Positions 57,251 through 64,000 of a DNA stretch of 64,000 nucleotides are shown piece after piece; within the stretch, counting starts at the first letter, position 1, and each line of letters opens with the position of its first letter. Source of the stretch: Geobacteraceae bacterium GWC2_55_20. GTDB taxonomy: Bacteria > Desulfobacterota > Desulfuromonadia > Geobacterales > Pseudopelobacteraceae. Made by a program: the position numbers and the translations under genes. The DNA lies in the NCBI GenBank assembly GCA_001802125.1, contig MGZK01000154.1:26162-90161 (forward strand), read 5' to 3'. The notes below the pieces were generated by a model that saw nothing but the letters and a program-made list of their open reading frames with translations, ran no database searches and was not told the origin of the DNA.

Positions 57251-57284
57251 CCCGATGGGGCTGGTCACGGTAGGGGGGACAGGA

Positions 57285-58004
57285 ATGGCCGCAAACCATA
57301 AAAGACCGTTGGAAGACATCTCCGCTATTGCCAGGCGCCTGACCTGGAAATCAAACCTGATACTGGCGCTGATTGCTTATGTGGCGCTGCATCTGGCGGC
57401 AGAGGTCAAGCTGCAGCATCCGGTCCCAATCGACCGGATCGGCGGCTACGTGCTGAAACAGCTGCTGATTACGATGGCGATGTTCGGCCAGTACATTCTG
57501 CCGGCAGCCTTGCTGATCGCGGCGCTGGTCTCCCTGGTCCGTTTCCGGAAGCAGCAGTCGCTGTACGAAGGAGTTGCGCTCAGCCAGGATATTGCGGCGC
57601 TGACCAGCCTGGCCTGGCCCGAATTCGAGCTGTTGCTGGCCGAATATTTCCGGCGTTGCGGCTACAGTGTCGCAACCACCTTCGGCGGAACCGACGGCGT
57701 CGTGGATATGAGGCTGACGATGAGCGGCGAACGCTATCTGGTCCAGTGCAATCAGTGGCGGGCCTACAAGGTGGGTGTGCGGCCGGTGCGCGAATTTTAC
57801 GAAGAGATATCCGCTGTTGGGGCGGCGGGTGGGTATTTTGTAACCTCGGGCGAGTTCAGTGCCGAGGCGGCGGAGTTCGCCGGCGGACTGAATCTGCTGC
57901 TGATAGACGGCAAAAAGTTTCTGCGCATGATCAATGACCAGCGGGTGCCGGCAAAGGTAGACAGGGAGGTTGCTCCCGTCGAGAAGGTGATGGCCACGCA
58001 GTAG
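57285..58004 (+). CDS. Membrane-anchored Mrr-like restriction endonuclease-fold protein
   Basis: Two TM segments then WPEFELLLAEYFRRCGYSVATTFGGTDGVVDMRL...YLVQCNQWRAYKVGVRPVREFY. Confidence 0.75.
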   Translation: MAANHKRPLEDISAIARRLTWKSNLILALIAYVALHLAAEVKLQHPVPIDRIGGYVLKQLLITMAMFGQYILPAALLIAALVSLVRFRKQQSLYEGVALSQDIAALTSLAWPEFELLLAEYFRRCGYSVATTFGGTDGVVDMRLTMSGERYLVQCNQWRAYKVGVRPVREFYEEISAVGAAGGYFVTSGEFSAEAAEFAGGLNLLLIDGKKFLRMINDQRVPAKVDREVAPVEKVMATQ

Positions 58005-58084
58005 AGCGCATGACCTTTTTTCCGGCCAGCTCCATGGGAGGATGTATTGGTCCACGAAAGACACTAAAATCACGAAACATTAAC

Positions 58085-58269
58085 CCGGAAAAAGCAGCTA
58101 ACCGCCGATGAACGCCGAAACACGCCGTCAGAAGTAGGCGCTTCTAAGCGAGAAATCAAAAAGCTGGAACAAAATACCGGTTTAACCCATATGGTGATTA
58201 ACTTTTTTGATGTATGTCCAGCTTTTACCGGCGTGCATCCGTTTTTCTCGGCGGTTAATTGCCGTTTAT
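58085..58269. repeat. MITE-like dispersed repeat, copy B (inverted relative to copy A)
   Basis: Reverse complement matches 46212-46372 over nearly its whole length, with one extra about 25-bp segment. Confidence 0.75.
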
Positions 58270-58617
58270 GGATTTAAAGGTTATAGCCGCGTCGTCGCGT
58301 GAGATCCTTGTTATTATTGATGTTATTCGTTGACAGTCAGGTTTTTCAGTAGTAGCGTGAGAAAAATTTTATGTTATGTGGTGGACGATGAAGAGTGACA
58401 GGGAACATGGGGGATTATGGGACCGCTTTGCCGGCATTTGCTGGCGGGCGGTTTTTTTGTGTGCGATAGGGATTTGTTCTTTTAGTTTTACAGCTACTTA
58501 GCAACTTGGAAGCCTGACCATGGTGGGCCCCTGACTCTCGCGGAACCCTCTTGCTTGAAGAGGTCATGAAAGGTGCGTTGGGCTAAATAATTCAGAATTT
58601 ACCGGGAGGGTGGCACT

Positions 58618-59175
58618 ATGGTCTATGAATACAGCATTAATGGCAGACTTTTGAAGACTGGGGATGTCATATCCACCAAGGACGGAACGAACTCCATCAA
58701 GTCGCTTGGTTTTCTGGTTCTTGGCGCAGCTATCCCCGGTGATATTGACCATTCTGTCCTCTATGTGGGGCCGGGCGGGCTGTGTGTGGAAGCGGGAATC
58801 TTCGGGGTCACCAGCTTTACTGCAGGCGAGACATGGAATTCAGATGAAACATTTGCCGCACGCGGTCTGTTGGACACTTTTGTGGCGGCGTCATCCGTGC
58901 TGAGCGGTCATGGCTTGTCAAGCGATGAAGAGGATACGGCCAGGAGCTTCGTGCGCGCCTATGCATTAGGCTGCGTCGGTAAGCCATACAACCTGGATTT
59001 TCTCCACCCGGACAATGAGCGCGCCATGTACTGCAGCCAGCTTGTCTATCTGGCGTACAAGAATGTGGGAATAAATCTCAACGTGGGGAACTCAGGTACA
59101 TCCACCAGATGGAGTGACACGATCGTCTTTCCGCAGGAGATTTTTGACAACACAACAGAGATTCAGAAAAGTTGA
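58618..59175 (+). CDS. YiiX-like permuted papain-fold (NlpC/P60 superfamily) hydrolase
   Basis: His motif DIDHSVLYVG precedes Cys motif MYCSQLVYLAYK. RBS gggagg. Confidence 0.65.
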   Translation: MVYEYSINGRLLKTGDVISTKDGTNSIKSLGFLVLGAAIPGDIDHSVLYVGPGGLCVEAGIFGVTSFTAGETWNSDETFAARGLLDTFVAASSVLSGHGLSSDEEDTARSFVRAYALGCVGKPYNLDFLHPDNERAMYCSQLVYLAYKNVGINLNVGNSGTSTRWSDTIVFPQEIFDNTTEIQKS

Positions 59176-59202
59176 ACTTAAAACATTAATGGGAGGTAGG
59201 GC

Positions 59203-60213
59203 ATGAACCTCGAATTTCACTACTGGATTACCGGCATCATTGCTGAACGAGCAGGTTTCATAGATGATGAACCACAGATCATCGCCTATAGTTCGCAGTA
59301 CGTTGATGATAATGACTTTGAAATTTTAGTTTTCGATGATGAACTTGACGTCGTTCCCTCCTACATCAGTCAGGTCAGCCAAACCATGAACATCCTTCTG
59401 CCACGTAAGGATATCATGAGAATCTACCCTCTCTTTCACTTTATCCCCGGTGACCAACCGCAAATTTCAAATCGACAGGATGGTCGAAGTCACCCGATGA
59501 ACACGACACCGGACAGCTCCTATGCCAACACACTGATGCAGTACACCCTCAAAAATGCAGCTTCAAGATACAAAGCTGGTGACAAGGGGGGGCTCTATCG
59601 TCTTGGGGTTATGACACACGCCTTTGTGGATACCTGGGCTCATCAAAATTTCATCGGATGGTTCGATGATTTCAATGCAATAGGTTCAAATATTATCCCT
59701 GATATCGGTCATGCCGATGCTTTGCACCACCCGGACTGGGTCGGTCATCGCTGGAACGATCAAAGACTGAAAGTCTATGATGTTGACAACATATCTCGTT
59801 TTCTGGGTGCGGCCCGAAAAACATATGCATACTTCGCTGATTTTAGACAACAGGTCACTGGAAAAACACTTGAGAATAACTGGGCAGGACTGGAAAGCGA
59901 CTTGAAAATAATCTTCGGAAACAGCTACAGCGGAGATGACGAAATAGGGGCGGATGCCAGGCTAGCACAGTATAAATGTATCTCAAAGATGCTTACTGGA
60001 TACGATGAACATGAATGGTTGAGTAATGCAACGGATCAAGATCGGGTCTTCAATGGAGCAACTGACGGCTACGACCAGAAGTATGTCTGGAAGGATGCCA
60101 ACAGTAAGGCGAATACCGACTGGCACAGGTTTCAGGAGGCGGTCAAGGATCATGTGATTACAGCAACAAATGTTCTCAGGCCTGTGTTTGCACAAGCTGG
60201 GATTGTGCTCTGA
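59203..60213 (+). CDS. DUF6765-like protein, possible PLC/P1-nuclease-type metal hydrolase fold
   Basis: MNLEFHYWITGIIAERAGF, IAYSSQYVDDN, HAFVDTWAH (HxxxDxxxH). RBS gggagg. Confidence 0.65.
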   Translation: MNLEFHYWITGIIAERAGFIDDEPQIIAYSSQYVDDNDFEILVFDDELDVVPSYISQVSQTMNILLPRKDIMRIYPLFHFIPGDQPQISNRQDGRSHPMNTTPDSSYANTLMQYTLKNAASRYKAGDKGGLYRLGVMTHAFVDTWAHQNFIGWFDDFNAIGSNIIPDIGHADALHHPDWVGHRWNDQRLKVYDVDNISRFLGAARKTYAYFADFRQQVTGKTLENNWAGLESDLKIIFGNSYSGDDEIGADARLAQYKCISKMLTGYDEHEWLSNATDQDRVFNGATDGYDQKYVWKDANSKANTDWHRFQEAVKDHVITATNVLRPVFAQAGIVL

Positions 60214-60375
60214 AGTCGTGTTTTTTCATGACTCGAATGGCCTAGCTTACTAGCATTGAGGTTGGTTATTATTGCTGGCCAGTTGTTGCTACAGACACTG
60301 TGAATTCAGTTTTGTGATTTGCATCATTACGCATCCAGTAGCAAAAAAAAAGCAATAATAATTGGCGGGTGAAAT

Positions 60376-61170
60376 ATGTTCGATGAACAGTTCCCTGAAT
60401 GGAATAATGATGATCAACAGTATTCAGTAAAAGCACTTAAACAATGGGTGGTTACAAATACTCAAAAGCAGATCGACTGGTATGAAACGAGAAGAAAACC
60501 CAGAAGATTGCTTGCACAAGGGGTGAGAGGGCTCGCCCTGATTCTTGCAACCTTGGGAGCCCTTTGCCCACTCTTGGCGCCAGTTGTAACGATAAATGGC
60601 TTGAAGTTGCCTGAACTTGGCTACGCATTTCTTGCAGTTGGAGCTGCTTTAATCCCCTTTGACCGGTATTACGGGTTTTCCAGTTCTTGGATGCGATTTT
60701 CCAGTACGCAGCTTTCATTAGAAATGCTGTTGCGTGAGTTTCAGTTCGACTGGATACTGTTACAATCGCAAGTCTTCTCGGCCGGGACATCAATACAGAA
60801 GCTGAAAGAATTTACGGGGAAGGTAGATGGGATCATTAAACAGGAGACGGATGCTTGGATCACTGACTTCAAGAACAATATCGCAGAACTGGAGAAAATG
60901 CTGAAGGCCGGTGCAGAGGAAAGGAAACCGGGTGCGATCAAATTGATGATTCCGAATGCTCGCGATTTTCAGAGAATATCCATTTCTGTGGACGGAGCAT
61001 TTAACAAAGAGATGGAAGGCGTTACGGAGACTCTAATCGATTCTATCAGCCCCGGACGACACGAGGTCTCCTTGTCTACTGTTGATAAATCGGGGAGTGA
61101 GCATAGGGAAGCAAAGGTGGTGGATGTCACGGCAAGTACGACAGTATCAGTTGATGTTACTATTCGCTAG
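60376..61170 (+). CDS. SLATT/DUF4231-type 2TM protein with C-terminal PEGA/Ig-like tail
   Basis: WYETRRKPRRLLAQGVRGLALILATLGALCPLLAP...LGYAFLAVGAALIPFDRYYGFSSSWMRFSSTQLSLE. Confidence 0.65.
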   Translation: MFDEQFPEWNNDDQQYSVKALKQWVVTNTQKQIDWYETRRKPRRLLAQGVRGLALILATLGALCPLLAPVVTINGLKLPELGYAFLAVGAALIPFDRYYGFSSSWMRFSSTQLSLEMLLREFQFDWILLQSQVFSAGTSIQKLKEFTGKVDGIIKQETDAWITDFKNNIAELEKMLKAGAEERKPGAIKLMIPNARDFQRISISVDGAFNKEMEGVTETLIDSISPGRHEVSLSTVDKSGSEHREAKVVDVTASTTVSVDVTIR

Positions 61171-61423
61171 GTTGACGGGTACTGTAATATTCAAACAGTG
61201 CGGAGCGGTGGTTACTGGAAATGTTGATGAGCCATTGACTATGCTTGGACCCGCTGAACAACTGGACGCTTTGGTGGAAATCAGAAATAAAATTTCCCGT
61301 GTCCTGGCGATTTAGCAACCATGTAAATTGAAGGATCATTCGATAGGAGGTGTAAGTGTTCACAGAATCTCAATTTAGAACGAGGCATGAGGGGAACGGT
61401 GTTATTTGTTTTTCTAATTCACT

Positions 61424-61517
61424 CAATAGATAAATAGATAACAGCGTCCCGCCGGACGTTTCCAATAGATAAATAGATAACAGCGTCCCGCCGGACGTTT
61501 CCCCGCCGGACGTTTCC
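61424..61517. repeat. Tandem repeat: two exact 39-bp units plus 16-bp partial
   Basis: caatagataaatagataacagcgtcccgccggacgtttc twice, then cccgccggacgtttcc. Confidence 0.95.
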
Positions 61518-61547
61518 AGGCACGGTGGGGCGTTGAGACCCAACCCT

Positions 61548-61619
61548 TGGAGATTGACGGTGTCGGAGCTACACATCTGACAGTGGAGATTGACGGTGTC
61601 GGAGCTACACATCTGACAG
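61548..61619. repeat. Tandem repeat: two exact 36-bp units
   Basis: tggagattgacggtgtcggagctacacatctgacag twice; inverted related copy at 61647-61669. Confidence 0.95.
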
Positions 61620-61884
61620 AATCACCCAAAAATGGCAAATTGTGTAATGTGTAGCCCCGACACCGTTAGACTACAAAATAGCGGAGGGGTCTTGAAAATG
61701 GAAATTCGGCCTCAAATTCTAAATTCAAGGGCAGCCCCCTAATCTGTTTCATTTGGCGGACAAGGCTCGAATGGTGATCAGGGAGATAGAGATAAACAGC
61801 TGGGCAGATCTACAGAAACTCGTGTGCGACAATCCCAGGAAGTTTCTGTTCGGTTGATTTTGAGCCCAATTCAAGGGGGAAAAT

Positions 61885-62691
61885 ATGGCAAAAGTTAATT
61901 TCACACCGGCGCTACGCAAGGAGTATGAAGACCTCTTCAACGGCTGCATTATCAAACCGGAAAAAACAGCTGCTGTAGAGGCGATCATTGGTAAGTTGTT
62001 GGCAAAGCAGTCGGTCTATCAAGCAGTCGGCGATCCCCTCGGCATTCCGTGGCACTTCATCGCAGTGATTCACAACATGGAGGCGAGTCTCAACTTTACC
62101 CGACACCTGCACAATGGCGACCCGCTTACAGCCCGTACGGTACAGGTCCCAAAAGGAAGGCCGGTTAAAGGAACTCCTCCCTTCACTTGGGAAGAGAGCG
62201 CTATCGATGCTCTGACCATGCGAGGTCTGGGCAAAGTTACAGACTGGAGCCTGCCCGGAACCCTCTATCAGCTGGAAGGGTACAACGGCTGGGGGTATCG
62301 GCTGTATCATCAACATGTCCTTTCCCCTTATCTCTGGAGCTATGCCAATCACTACATCAGCGGCAAATACGTTGCCGACGGCACTTGGTCCGACACGGCA
62401 ATATCACAGCAATGCGGCGCGGCGGTACTTCTACGAAGGATGGCTGAGCACGGCCAGATCAGTTTTGTCGACCAACCTGCACTGGAAGCTGGTTCACAGC
62501 CGCTGGTGGTGCCGTATTCCATGCATAAGTCCAGCGATCCAGCGGAGGTAGCCAAGGCAGAGGCGTTGCAGAGGTGGCTGAACACTTTCCCCGGAATTTT
62601 CGTCAAGGTGGACGGCGTGCCAGGAGAAAAAACGTCGAATGCCTACAAGAGTGTAACTGGTGGATATTTGCCGGGGGATCCGAGGGCATGA
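61885..62691 (+). CDS. Lysozyme-family protein with peptidoglycan-binding-like C-terminus
   Basis: GDPLGIPWHFIAVIHNMEASLNFTRHLHNGDPL; TLYQLEGYNGWGYR; LQRWLNTFPGIFVKVDGVPGEKTSNAYK. Confidence 0.75.
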   Translation: MAKVNFTPALRKEYEDLFNGCIIKPEKTAAVEAIIGKLLAKQSVYQAVGDPLGIPWHFIAVIHNMEASLNFTRHLHNGDPLTARTVQVPKGRPVKGTPPFTWEESAIDALTMRGLGKVTDWSLPGTLYQLEGYNGWGYRLYHQHVLSPYLWSYANHYISGKYVADGTWSDTAISQQCGAAVLLRRMAEHGQISFVDQPALEAGSQPLVVPYSMHKSSDPAEVAKAEALQRWLNTFPGIFVKVDGVPGEKTSNAYKSVTGGYLPGDPRA

Positions 62692-62724
62692 AGGTACTCA
62701 CGCACGTCTTTGACTGGAGGATAT

Positions 62725-63825
62725 ATGCCGCCTCGTAATGACAGCGTTTTTTTCGTCAGTTATGCTGGTGAGGATTTAAAATGGGCGCAATGGATTGTTT
62801 GGGAGCTTCAGAACGCCAAGCCTCGTTATCGCTGCATCGCTCAGTTCAAGGACTTCACGCCAGGAATGAGCTTCATACAAAAGATGCGCGAAGCTGCCGA
62901 ATCTGACTGCACTATAGCAGTCTTTTCACCACATTACTTTAGCTCCAGGTATTGCCAACAGGAACTCGACGCGTCGCTTACCGGTGATGTAACGAGGCTC
63001 CTTCCAGTACGAGTAGAACCATGCGACCCGGGCCAATTTCTTCAAAATCGTATTTATATTGATTTGGTGAACAAGTCCATCGATGACGCAAGAAACTCAC
63101 TTTTGAGTGGCGTGGAAGCTTACCTTACAAGCACCAGAAAGCTCAGCGACAAGCCCGCCTTTCGGCAAAGGCCAGTTTTCCCAGGTCCCATGCAGGACGA
63201 AACCTCACATAATAAACCAGTTATTCCCACAGTTGCTGAAGGGCCACTTAAAGTCCTTTTTCTGGCTCCACAAGTGGGGGGGCTTTCCCCGAGCTCTCAA
63301 TTGCAAAAAATGAAACGTTGCTTGGAACAGGCGCGGTTCCCCAAATCCATTATTTTTAAAGGCGTATTCAAGGTACACGTGACGTCGCTATTCCAGGAAT
63401 TGAATAAAGAAGCTCCACATGTTTTCCATTTTAGCGGAAAGCAAAACGGTGGCGACATTCTGATGCGCACGGAAAACGGCGGTCTGACCACAGTTCAGGA
63501 TACAGCACTTGCAGGGATGTTCCAGTCACTTGATAAAGGTTTGAAACTTGTGGTCATCGATACATGCTTTTCGTTGCGCTGTGCATCCACCATCGCAAAG
63601 GTTGTGCCTTGTGCAATAGGAGTAAAAGCCGAGATCTATGAGGATGACGCTACGACGTTTTATGGCATCTTCTACCAGGCTGTTGCCTCGGGACGCTCCC
63701 TTAAGGATGCAGTAGCGCAGGCAAGAACCTCACTGAAATTCGCAAAAGTTCCCGAGGAACAGATTCCCCAATTATGTTGCCGTGAAGGGGTCGATCCCGC
63801 TCAAATATTCTTGGTTGATCACTAA
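62725..63825 (+). CDS. TIR-domain protein fused to CHAT/caspase-like domain
   Basis: FFVSYAGEDLKWAQWIVWEL...SPHYFSSRYCQQELDASL (TIR); HVFHFSGKQNGG...LKLVVIDTCFS (His/Cys dyad-like). Start uncertain (62710 or 62725). Confidence 0.8.
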   Translation: MPPRNDSVFFVSYAGEDLKWAQWIVWELQNAKPRYRCIAQFKDFTPGMSFIQKMREAAESDCTIAVFSPHYFSSRYCQQELDASLTGDVTRLLPVRVEPCDPGQFLQNRIYIDLVNKSIDDARNSLLSGVEAYLTSTRKLSDKPAFRQRPVFPGPMQDETSHNKPVIPTVAEGPLKVLFLAPQVGGLSPSSQLQKMKRCLEQARFPKSIIFKGVFKVHVTSLFQELNKEAPHVFHFSGKQNGGDILMRTENGGLTTVQDTALAGMFQSLDKGLKLVVIDTCFSLRCASTIAKVVPCAIGVKAEIYEDDATTFYGIFYQAVASGRSLKDAVAQARTSLKFAKVPEEQIPQLCCREGVDPAQIFLVDH

Positions 63826-63898
63826 GTCAGTTGCACAATTAACGAGCGTACCTTGTCCATGACGTTGTGGAATTAATTCATTGCGAGAGGAGAACCAT

Positions 63899-64000
63899 AT
63901 GGCTGCTGATAAAACCCTGGTCGTATTCGTCCATGGCTGGAGTGTCACCAATACCAACACCTACGGCGGATTGCCGGTCAGGCTGGCTAATGAGGCCAAG
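63899..64000 (+). CDS. Alpha/beta hydrolase, truncated by window edge
   Basis: MAADKTLVVFVHGWSVTNTNTYGGLPVRLANEAK (HGW oxyanion-type motif). Confidence 0.55.
   Translation, partial: MAADKTLVVFVHGWSVTNTNTYGGLPVRLANEAK

Follow-up and report, generated by a model that had tools for sequence, protein, structure and literature searches.

A low-GC cassette joining TIR-CHAT and SLATT proteins to predicted wall and lipid hydrolases in Geobacteraceae bacterium GWC2_55_20: a possible conflict system with a self-lysis output

The DNA analysed here is a 64,000-nucleotide stretch (the window) from Geobacteraceae bacterium GWC2_55_20, comprising bases 26162-90161 of the 90161-base contig MGZK01000154.1, and the end of the window, position 64000, is also the end of the contig. 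From position 58618 onwards it carries a cassette encoding a permuted papain-like amidase, a DUF6765 protein, a SLATT membrane protein, an endolysin-like lysozyme of a family referred to here as LYZ, a protein that joins a TIR to a CHAT domain, and the beginning of an alpha/beta-hydrolase. Our preferred reading, tentative and falling slightly short of an even chance, is of a conflict cassette, for defence or programmed death, that was gained horizontally and whose output would be lysis of its own cell. The features are as follows.

58618-59175, plus strand: C92 permuted papain-like amidase (YiiX/YaeF type), 185 amino acids (aa); Pfam PF05708 Peptidase_C92
59203-60213, plus strand: DUF6765 protein, 336 aa; Pfam PF20551
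60376-61170, plus strand: SLATT_2 membrane protein, 264 aa; Pfam PF18183 and NCBIfam SLATT_2
61885-62691, plus strand: LYZ, endolysin-like lysozyme, 268 aa; placed by its muramidase-like homologues in phages and plasmids and by an AlphaFold2 model
62725-63825, plus strand: TIR-CHAT protein, 366 aa from the ATG at 62725 (371 from the TTG at 62710); Pfam TIR_2, CHAT by alignment
63899-64000, plus strand: 5′ end (34 codons) of a PlaB/DUF7379-like alpha/beta-hydrolase gene cut by the contig end; by homology
58080-58275 (about), no strand assigned: dispersed repeat of ~190 base pairs (bp); search of the genome against its own DNA; a boundary marker, no functional part
61424-61676, no strand assigned: intergenic direct repeats (39 bp twice; 36 bp twice, perfect) and an inverted copy, between the SLATT and LYZ genes; repeat search

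An earlier note on this DNA, made from the sequence alone, described six consecutive plus-strand genes, most with a strong ribosome-binding site of their own, directly after a mobile-repeat-like element. The open reading frames bear out the six genes, the sixth only as a start at 63899, and clear ribosome-binding sites precede most of them (GGGAGG, GGGAGGT, AAGGGGG, TGGAGG and AGGAG), although the site before the SLATT gene, GGCGGG, is weaker. The genes are also unevenly packed, with 27 nucleotides between C92 and DUF6765, 162 between DUF6765 and SLATT, 714 between SLATT and LYZ, about 33 between LYZ and TIR-CHAT (start at 62725) and 73 between TIR-CHAT and the lipase. The ATG at 62725 is the most likely TIR-CHAT start because the TTG at 62710 lacks a ribosome-binding site. 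Given the 714-nucleotide gap with its direct repeats, the cassette probably comprises two or three transcription units. The element noted upstream proved to be the repeat at 58080-58275, which has about 25 dispersed copies in the genome at no more than 91% identity. The cassette has a guanine-plus-cytosine (GC) content of 48.3% against 56.7% upstream, and because of this low GC and the flanking dispersed repeat it looks horizontally acquired. For the repeats at 61424-61676, a genome search gave partial matches and no further full copies, and a mobile element at 61400-61720 was dropped as a candidate for the same lack of additional full copies. No other contig of the assembly overlaps the last 141 bases, and a search of the assembly for the rest of the cut lipase gene with a homologue matched nothing beyond the first 27 codons.

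The domain calls of the earlier note stand on Pfam profiles for C92, DUF6765, SLATT_2 and TIR, and on homology, below the Pfam threshold, for CHAT. Its lysozyme call finds no match to LYZ in Pfam, PADLOC, PHROGs or, above cut-off, NCBIfam, and a search of the Protein Data Bank (PDB) with the sequence returned a chance match only; what upholds it is the homology to phage and plasmid proteins together with the predicted fold. The AlphaFold2 model (predicted local distance difference test, pLDDT, 86.8) has PDB matches that are weak singly (E above 1), nearly all of them to goose-type lysozymes (goose lysozyme) or lytic transglycosylases (MltE). A catalytic-type glutamate, E66, does not vary over 33 sequences, nor do 26 further positions; H63 is conserved, and identity to 32 IMG/VR copies is 33-54%. 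As judged from sequence and model, LYZ is one of a family of muramidases resembling phage endolysins and keeps the catalytic glutamate, and muramidase activity is predicted. Its C-terminal tail, WLNTFPGIFVKVDGVPG...GYLPGDPRA, is shared by the copy in genome G485. Apart from the SLATT protein, no complete cassette protein has a strongly hydrophobic segment, signal peptide or transmembrane segment, and LYZ is predicted to be cytoplasmic.

Homologues of LYZ are found on alphaproteobacterial plasmids, in a Bradyrhizobium phage genome and in a Rhodoplanes plasmid-prophage beside annotated tail genes. A viral scan with the single LYZ sequence gave no match, as did one with DUF6765, whereas a scan with the LYZ alignment gave the 80 IMG/VR loci kept here; in some viral contigs read, such as L199, a small transmembrane (holin-like) reading frame lies just upstream of LYZ. 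A DUF1353 gene adjoins LYZ in a phage contig (L174:5507-6555) and lies near LYZ in alphaproteobacterial caspase/trypsin loci (L034 and L037), which suggests a phage pair transferred together. That LYZ homologues are phage endolysins would suit a decayed prophage lysis module lying beside unrelated genes. This explanation, already disfavoured, is very improbable, given that PHROGs matches none of the cassette genes (it also fails on two viral LYZ copies), that no structural phage genes are adjacent and that all invariant residues are kept. The phylogenetic tree also places the cellular LYZ clades apart from the viral ones. LYZ occurs in 10 of the 396 genomes of the window's phylum, and nine of these ten cellular copies form one clade (support 99/93), with the tenth, from G484, grouping with Paroceanicella. 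The nearest neighbours of the window copy in the tree are the copies of G278, which has a caspase operon, of G485 and G594, where LYZ is paired with DUF6765, and of G424 (support 98/93). We rejected a prophage origin of the whole region because phage genes are lacking.

The contexts in which LYZ recurs lend support to the conflict reading. In G278, a single strand encodes an abH-caspase, a caspase, an ORF6N protein, LYZ, a transmembrane protein, a DUF900 hydrolase and a phospholipase A1. In G485 and G594, two genomes of another family, DUF6765 is followed directly by LYZ; in G577 the order is patatin, a small lipoprotein, a 104-aa protein and LYZ, and in G484 a TPR-CHAT protein is encoded near LYZ. 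Plasmids give similar pictures, including a trypsin-NucA-LYZ fusion with an alpha/beta hydrolase, CHAT and S8 in Sinorhizobium (S.) meliloti, trypsins and an AAA ATPase in Caulobacter, caspases, CHAT and patatin-like genes in R. ruizarguesonis, caspases in R. leguminosarum, and S8 and patatin in Paroceanicella. Caspase-fold genes, counted with hidden Markov models (HMMs) that left out each locus's own sequences, occur at 6 of 16 cellular LYZ loci and at 1 of 48 DUF6765 comparison loci, and none of the 80 viral LYZ loci has caspase or CHAT genes. The enrichment at cellular LYZ loci over comparison loci (Fisher p = 6e-4, or 2e-3 leaving out the window) is to be read with the LYZ set spanning several phyla, the HMM seeds coming from the same loci and the comparison loci coming from one phylum. 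Among the Pfam families listed, caspase (4) and CHAT (3) lead the LYZ neighbours and neither is among the control families; we prefer the HMM comparison because single-member families are not displayed in the Pfam counts. A local HMM for patatin gave no enrichment signal at LYZ loci, its seeds probably being too divergent.

In R. jaguaris, LYZ stands with a transmembrane protein and a Tle1-like phospholipase. A Tle1-like phospholipase of the type VI secretion system beside LYZ, and the fact that effectors typically have lysozyme, amidase or phospholipase activity, speak for another reading, in which the enzymes are exported against other bacteria (by type VI or a similar route) and SLATT or other proteins confer immunity or assist delivery. 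We consider this quite improbable, since the cassette has no secretion-type markers, no PAAR, VgrG or extracellular contractile injection system (eCIS) parts and no obvious immunity genes, and since TIR, CHAT and SLATT are conflict domains of the cytoplasm and inner membrane.

The TIR half of the TIR-CHAT protein matches Pfam TIR_2 (2e-27) and keeps its glutamate in RYCQQE85 (371-aa numbering), from which NADase activity (cleavage of nicotinamide adenine dinucleotide, NAD) is predicted. The CHAT half has 31% identity to the protein of locus L022, which has a Pfam-recognised CHAT, and matches PDB chain 8tl0, a ‘CHAT domain-containing protein’ (E 3e-7). Cys286 (DTC) is kept, while K244 replaces the catalytic histidine; the motif reads HFSGKQ in the window and in an 82%-identical copy from G063, against HFSGHG or HFIGHG in intact CHATs, and L022, L023 and 8tl0 retain GHG. 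The G063 copy is part of a conflict island (L020:2241-16600) with, in a row, a DUF7379/LCAT-CHAT-TPR-S protein (1814 aa), a TIR-NACHT protein (1533 aa), a ThsB-like TIR protein and TIR-CHAT. The earlier note had proposed an alpha/beta hydrolase after TIR-CHAT, and the 34 codons present do resemble PlaB/DUF7379 proteins, sharing 61-67% identity with PlaB of Legionella lytica and with a homologue from Photobacterium in alignments of 27-28 aa; the Photobacterium protein weakly matches Pfam DUF7379. The cut gene probably codes for a phospholipase. Because TIR-CHAT in G063 adjoins the DUF7379/LCAT-CHAT-TPR-S and TIR-NACHT proteins, TIR-CHAT with a DUF7379-type hydrolase is, by homology, a pairing seen twice, here and in G063.

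The SLATT protein is well above the curated cut-offs of both Pfam PF18183 (8e-19; 68.7 bits against 25) and NCBIfam SLATT_2 (8e-34; 116.8 against 40). With a hydrophobic segment at residues 53-71 and a beta-sandwich-like C-terminal tail, it is predicted to be a pore or membrane effector. The C92 protein matches PF05708 over residues 104-155 (E 2.2e-7), and the motifs DHSVLYVG (His) and YCSQLV (Cys) were assigned to it by eye.

DUF6765 matches PF20551 over residues 1-322 (6e-62; 210.5 bits against a cut-off of 26.6), and eight residues are invariant over 44 diverse members: H6, D35, H79, H139, D143, H147, H170 and D178. We take this order of histidines and aspartates to be that of the metal ligands of tri-zinc phospholipase C (PC-PLC) and P1 nuclease, which neither the PDB profile search (chance-level matches only) nor the AlphaFold2 model (pLDDT 43, not used) confirmed; DUF6765 is a putative metal-dependent hydrolase of this kind. 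Its contexts vary. CHAT and DUF6765 occur together in G135, and in G073 DUF6765 is accompanied by a transmembrane protein, a peptidoglycan-binding/CHAP-like protein and a phage lysozyme. A trio of lipoprotein (~220 aa), ~90-aa protein and DUF6765 is kept in G135 and in three gammaproteobacterial plasmids (L022:1009-3138, L045:7031-9074, L047:6061-8065 and L048:6060-8065), with CHAT upstream in one locus and a YLATT protein with three transmembrane segments upstream in another. At L016, L025, L079, L082-L086, L091 and L095, DUF6765 lies by a glycyl-radical enzyme, often with an activase and an SCP2-like protein; this uncharacterised operon, found at many loci of the phylum, possibly acts on lipids or sterols. 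At L128:6186-8019 (G062) a frameshift or stop splits DUF6765, and the next protein resembles a NucA-type endonuclease by eye. A role as a dedicated conflict gene was rejected, most copies in the phylum lying beside the glycyl-radical enzyme or having no recurrent partner. Because its contexts are mixed (CHAT, the trio, lysozyme and glycyl-radical operons), DUF6765 is best described as an enzyme that has been recruited and does not mark conflict loci.

Several observations weigh against the conflict reading. The full six-gene cassette was found in no other genome among the samples searched (396 genomes of the phylum, 98 relatives, and plasmids). LYZ stands alone in G541 and beside Vsr/Dcm-like genes in G493, and the repeat-bearing 714-nucleotide gap divides the cassette. 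Most DUF6765 genes of the phylum lack conflict neighbours, and the nearest relative of the window copy (68%, G048) adjoins a glycyl-radical enzyme in a non-conflict operon. The enzymatic activities of the C92 and DUF6765 proteins are predictions and unproven. The CHAT domain looks inactive and is probably no protease, because its catalytic histidine is a lysine in both close TIR-CHAT copies. No NTPase or STAND sensor was seen in the window; one may sit past the contig end or be absent.

Some of the same observations would suit accretion, in which separately mobile genes (C92-DUF6765, SLATT, and LYZ-TIR-CHAT-lipase) gathered at a hot spot by the dispersed repeat without sharing a mechanism. The unique composition, the divided layout, the repeat and the low GC all agree with it, as do the different contexts from which the nearest relatives of DUF6765 (G048) and TIR-CHAT (G063) come and the presence of a transmembrane Mrr gene just upstream. 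At unrelated loci, nevertheless, LYZ recurs above background with genes for DUF6765, caspase-fold proteins and lipases, and only short gaps separate LYZ, TIR-CHAT and the lipase start, each of which has its own ribosome-binding site. We regard accretion as less likely than the conflict reading, and as a serious rival to it because a second complete cassette was not found. Relatives of DUF6765, LYZ and TIR-CHAT are nearly absent from close genomes. The Mrr gene (57255-58004, same strand) encodes an Mrr_cat nuclease domain with two N-terminal transmembrane segments and could be part of the same accessory island; in PADLOC it is the sole match, the five complete cassette proteins having none.

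Known systems share parts of this composition. Kaur et al. (2020; PMC7159879, section 32) describe lysozyme and papain-like wall hydrolases, linked to EAD1, as effectors in alphaproteobacterial NucA/trypsin systems (System 3), a description that the S. meliloti and Caulobacter plasmid loci fit. The window cassette likewise has lysozyme and papain-like wall enzymes, but a Pfam scan up to the contig end found no NucA, trypsin or STAND gene; it has TIR-CHAT, SLATT, DUF6765 and a PlaB-like lipase instead, and its host is not an alphaproteobacterium. No EAD was matched in the Pfam scan, in which no dedicated EAD profile was run. TIR, SLATT and alpha/beta-hydrolase effectors also occur in GAP1-N1 GTPase-centred systems (PMC7159879, section 28), and the window likewise brings together TIR, a SLATT protein with two transmembrane segments and an alpha/beta hydrolase, but has no GTPase or GAP1, while lysozyme and DUF6765 are not reported in those systems. 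Compared with conflict-system CHAT proteases (PDB 8tl0), the window protein has a homologous CHAT with the catalytic-type cysteine conserved, but a lysine for the catalytic histidine and an N-terminal TIR fusion. Our literature search found no paper on DUF6765 and none describing this gene combination. The earlier note recognised no named system with this composition; this holds for the exact set, while the lysozyme and papain-like effectors and the TIR-SLATT pairing have precedents (PMC7159879). Its proposal that a TIR/CHAT protein triggers or processes envelope-damaging effectors gains from sub-combinations that recur independently, but processing is made less plausible by the change of histidine to lysine; of the recurrent neighbourhood it had called for, these sub-combinations were found and the full gene order was not.

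If the conflict reading is right, the TIR domain, or an NAD-derived signal, would fire on invasion, with the degenerate CHAT perhaps serving as a scaffold for recognition or partner binding instead of as a protease. SLATT and the lipid hydrolases (PlaB-like and perhaps DUF6765) might then open the inner membrane in a holin-like manner, giving the cytoplasmic lysozyme and the amidase access to the peptidoglycan, and the cell would lyse before the invader's cycle is complete. What we observe is the set of parts, the absence of export signals and the pairings that recur; we infer how the cassette would be triggered, in what order its parts would act and that it would serve against phages. A domesticated phage holin-endolysin strategy, in which TIR and a dead CHAT control a SLATT ‘holin’, PlaB-like and DUF6765 hydrolases and a cytoplasmic endolysin so that the infected cell bursts, is an unlikely proposal. 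As in phage holin-endolysin cassettes, the window pairs an endolysin-type lysozyme lacking a signal peptide with a small membrane protein; unlike them, it has no phage genes, SLATT is not a recognised holin, and TIR-CHAT and the lipase are additional.

Suicide defences known so far mostly act by starving or poisoning the cell, through loss of NAD, nucleases or pores. If the conflict reading is true, membrane attack combined with a former phage endolysin would mean that the phage's exit tool has been turned into a bacterial defence, and the uncharacterised DUF6765 and an unclassified lysozyme family would gain a testable role. The pairs of LYZ with caspase or CHAT, with DUF6765 and with phospholipase could then be searched for systematically.

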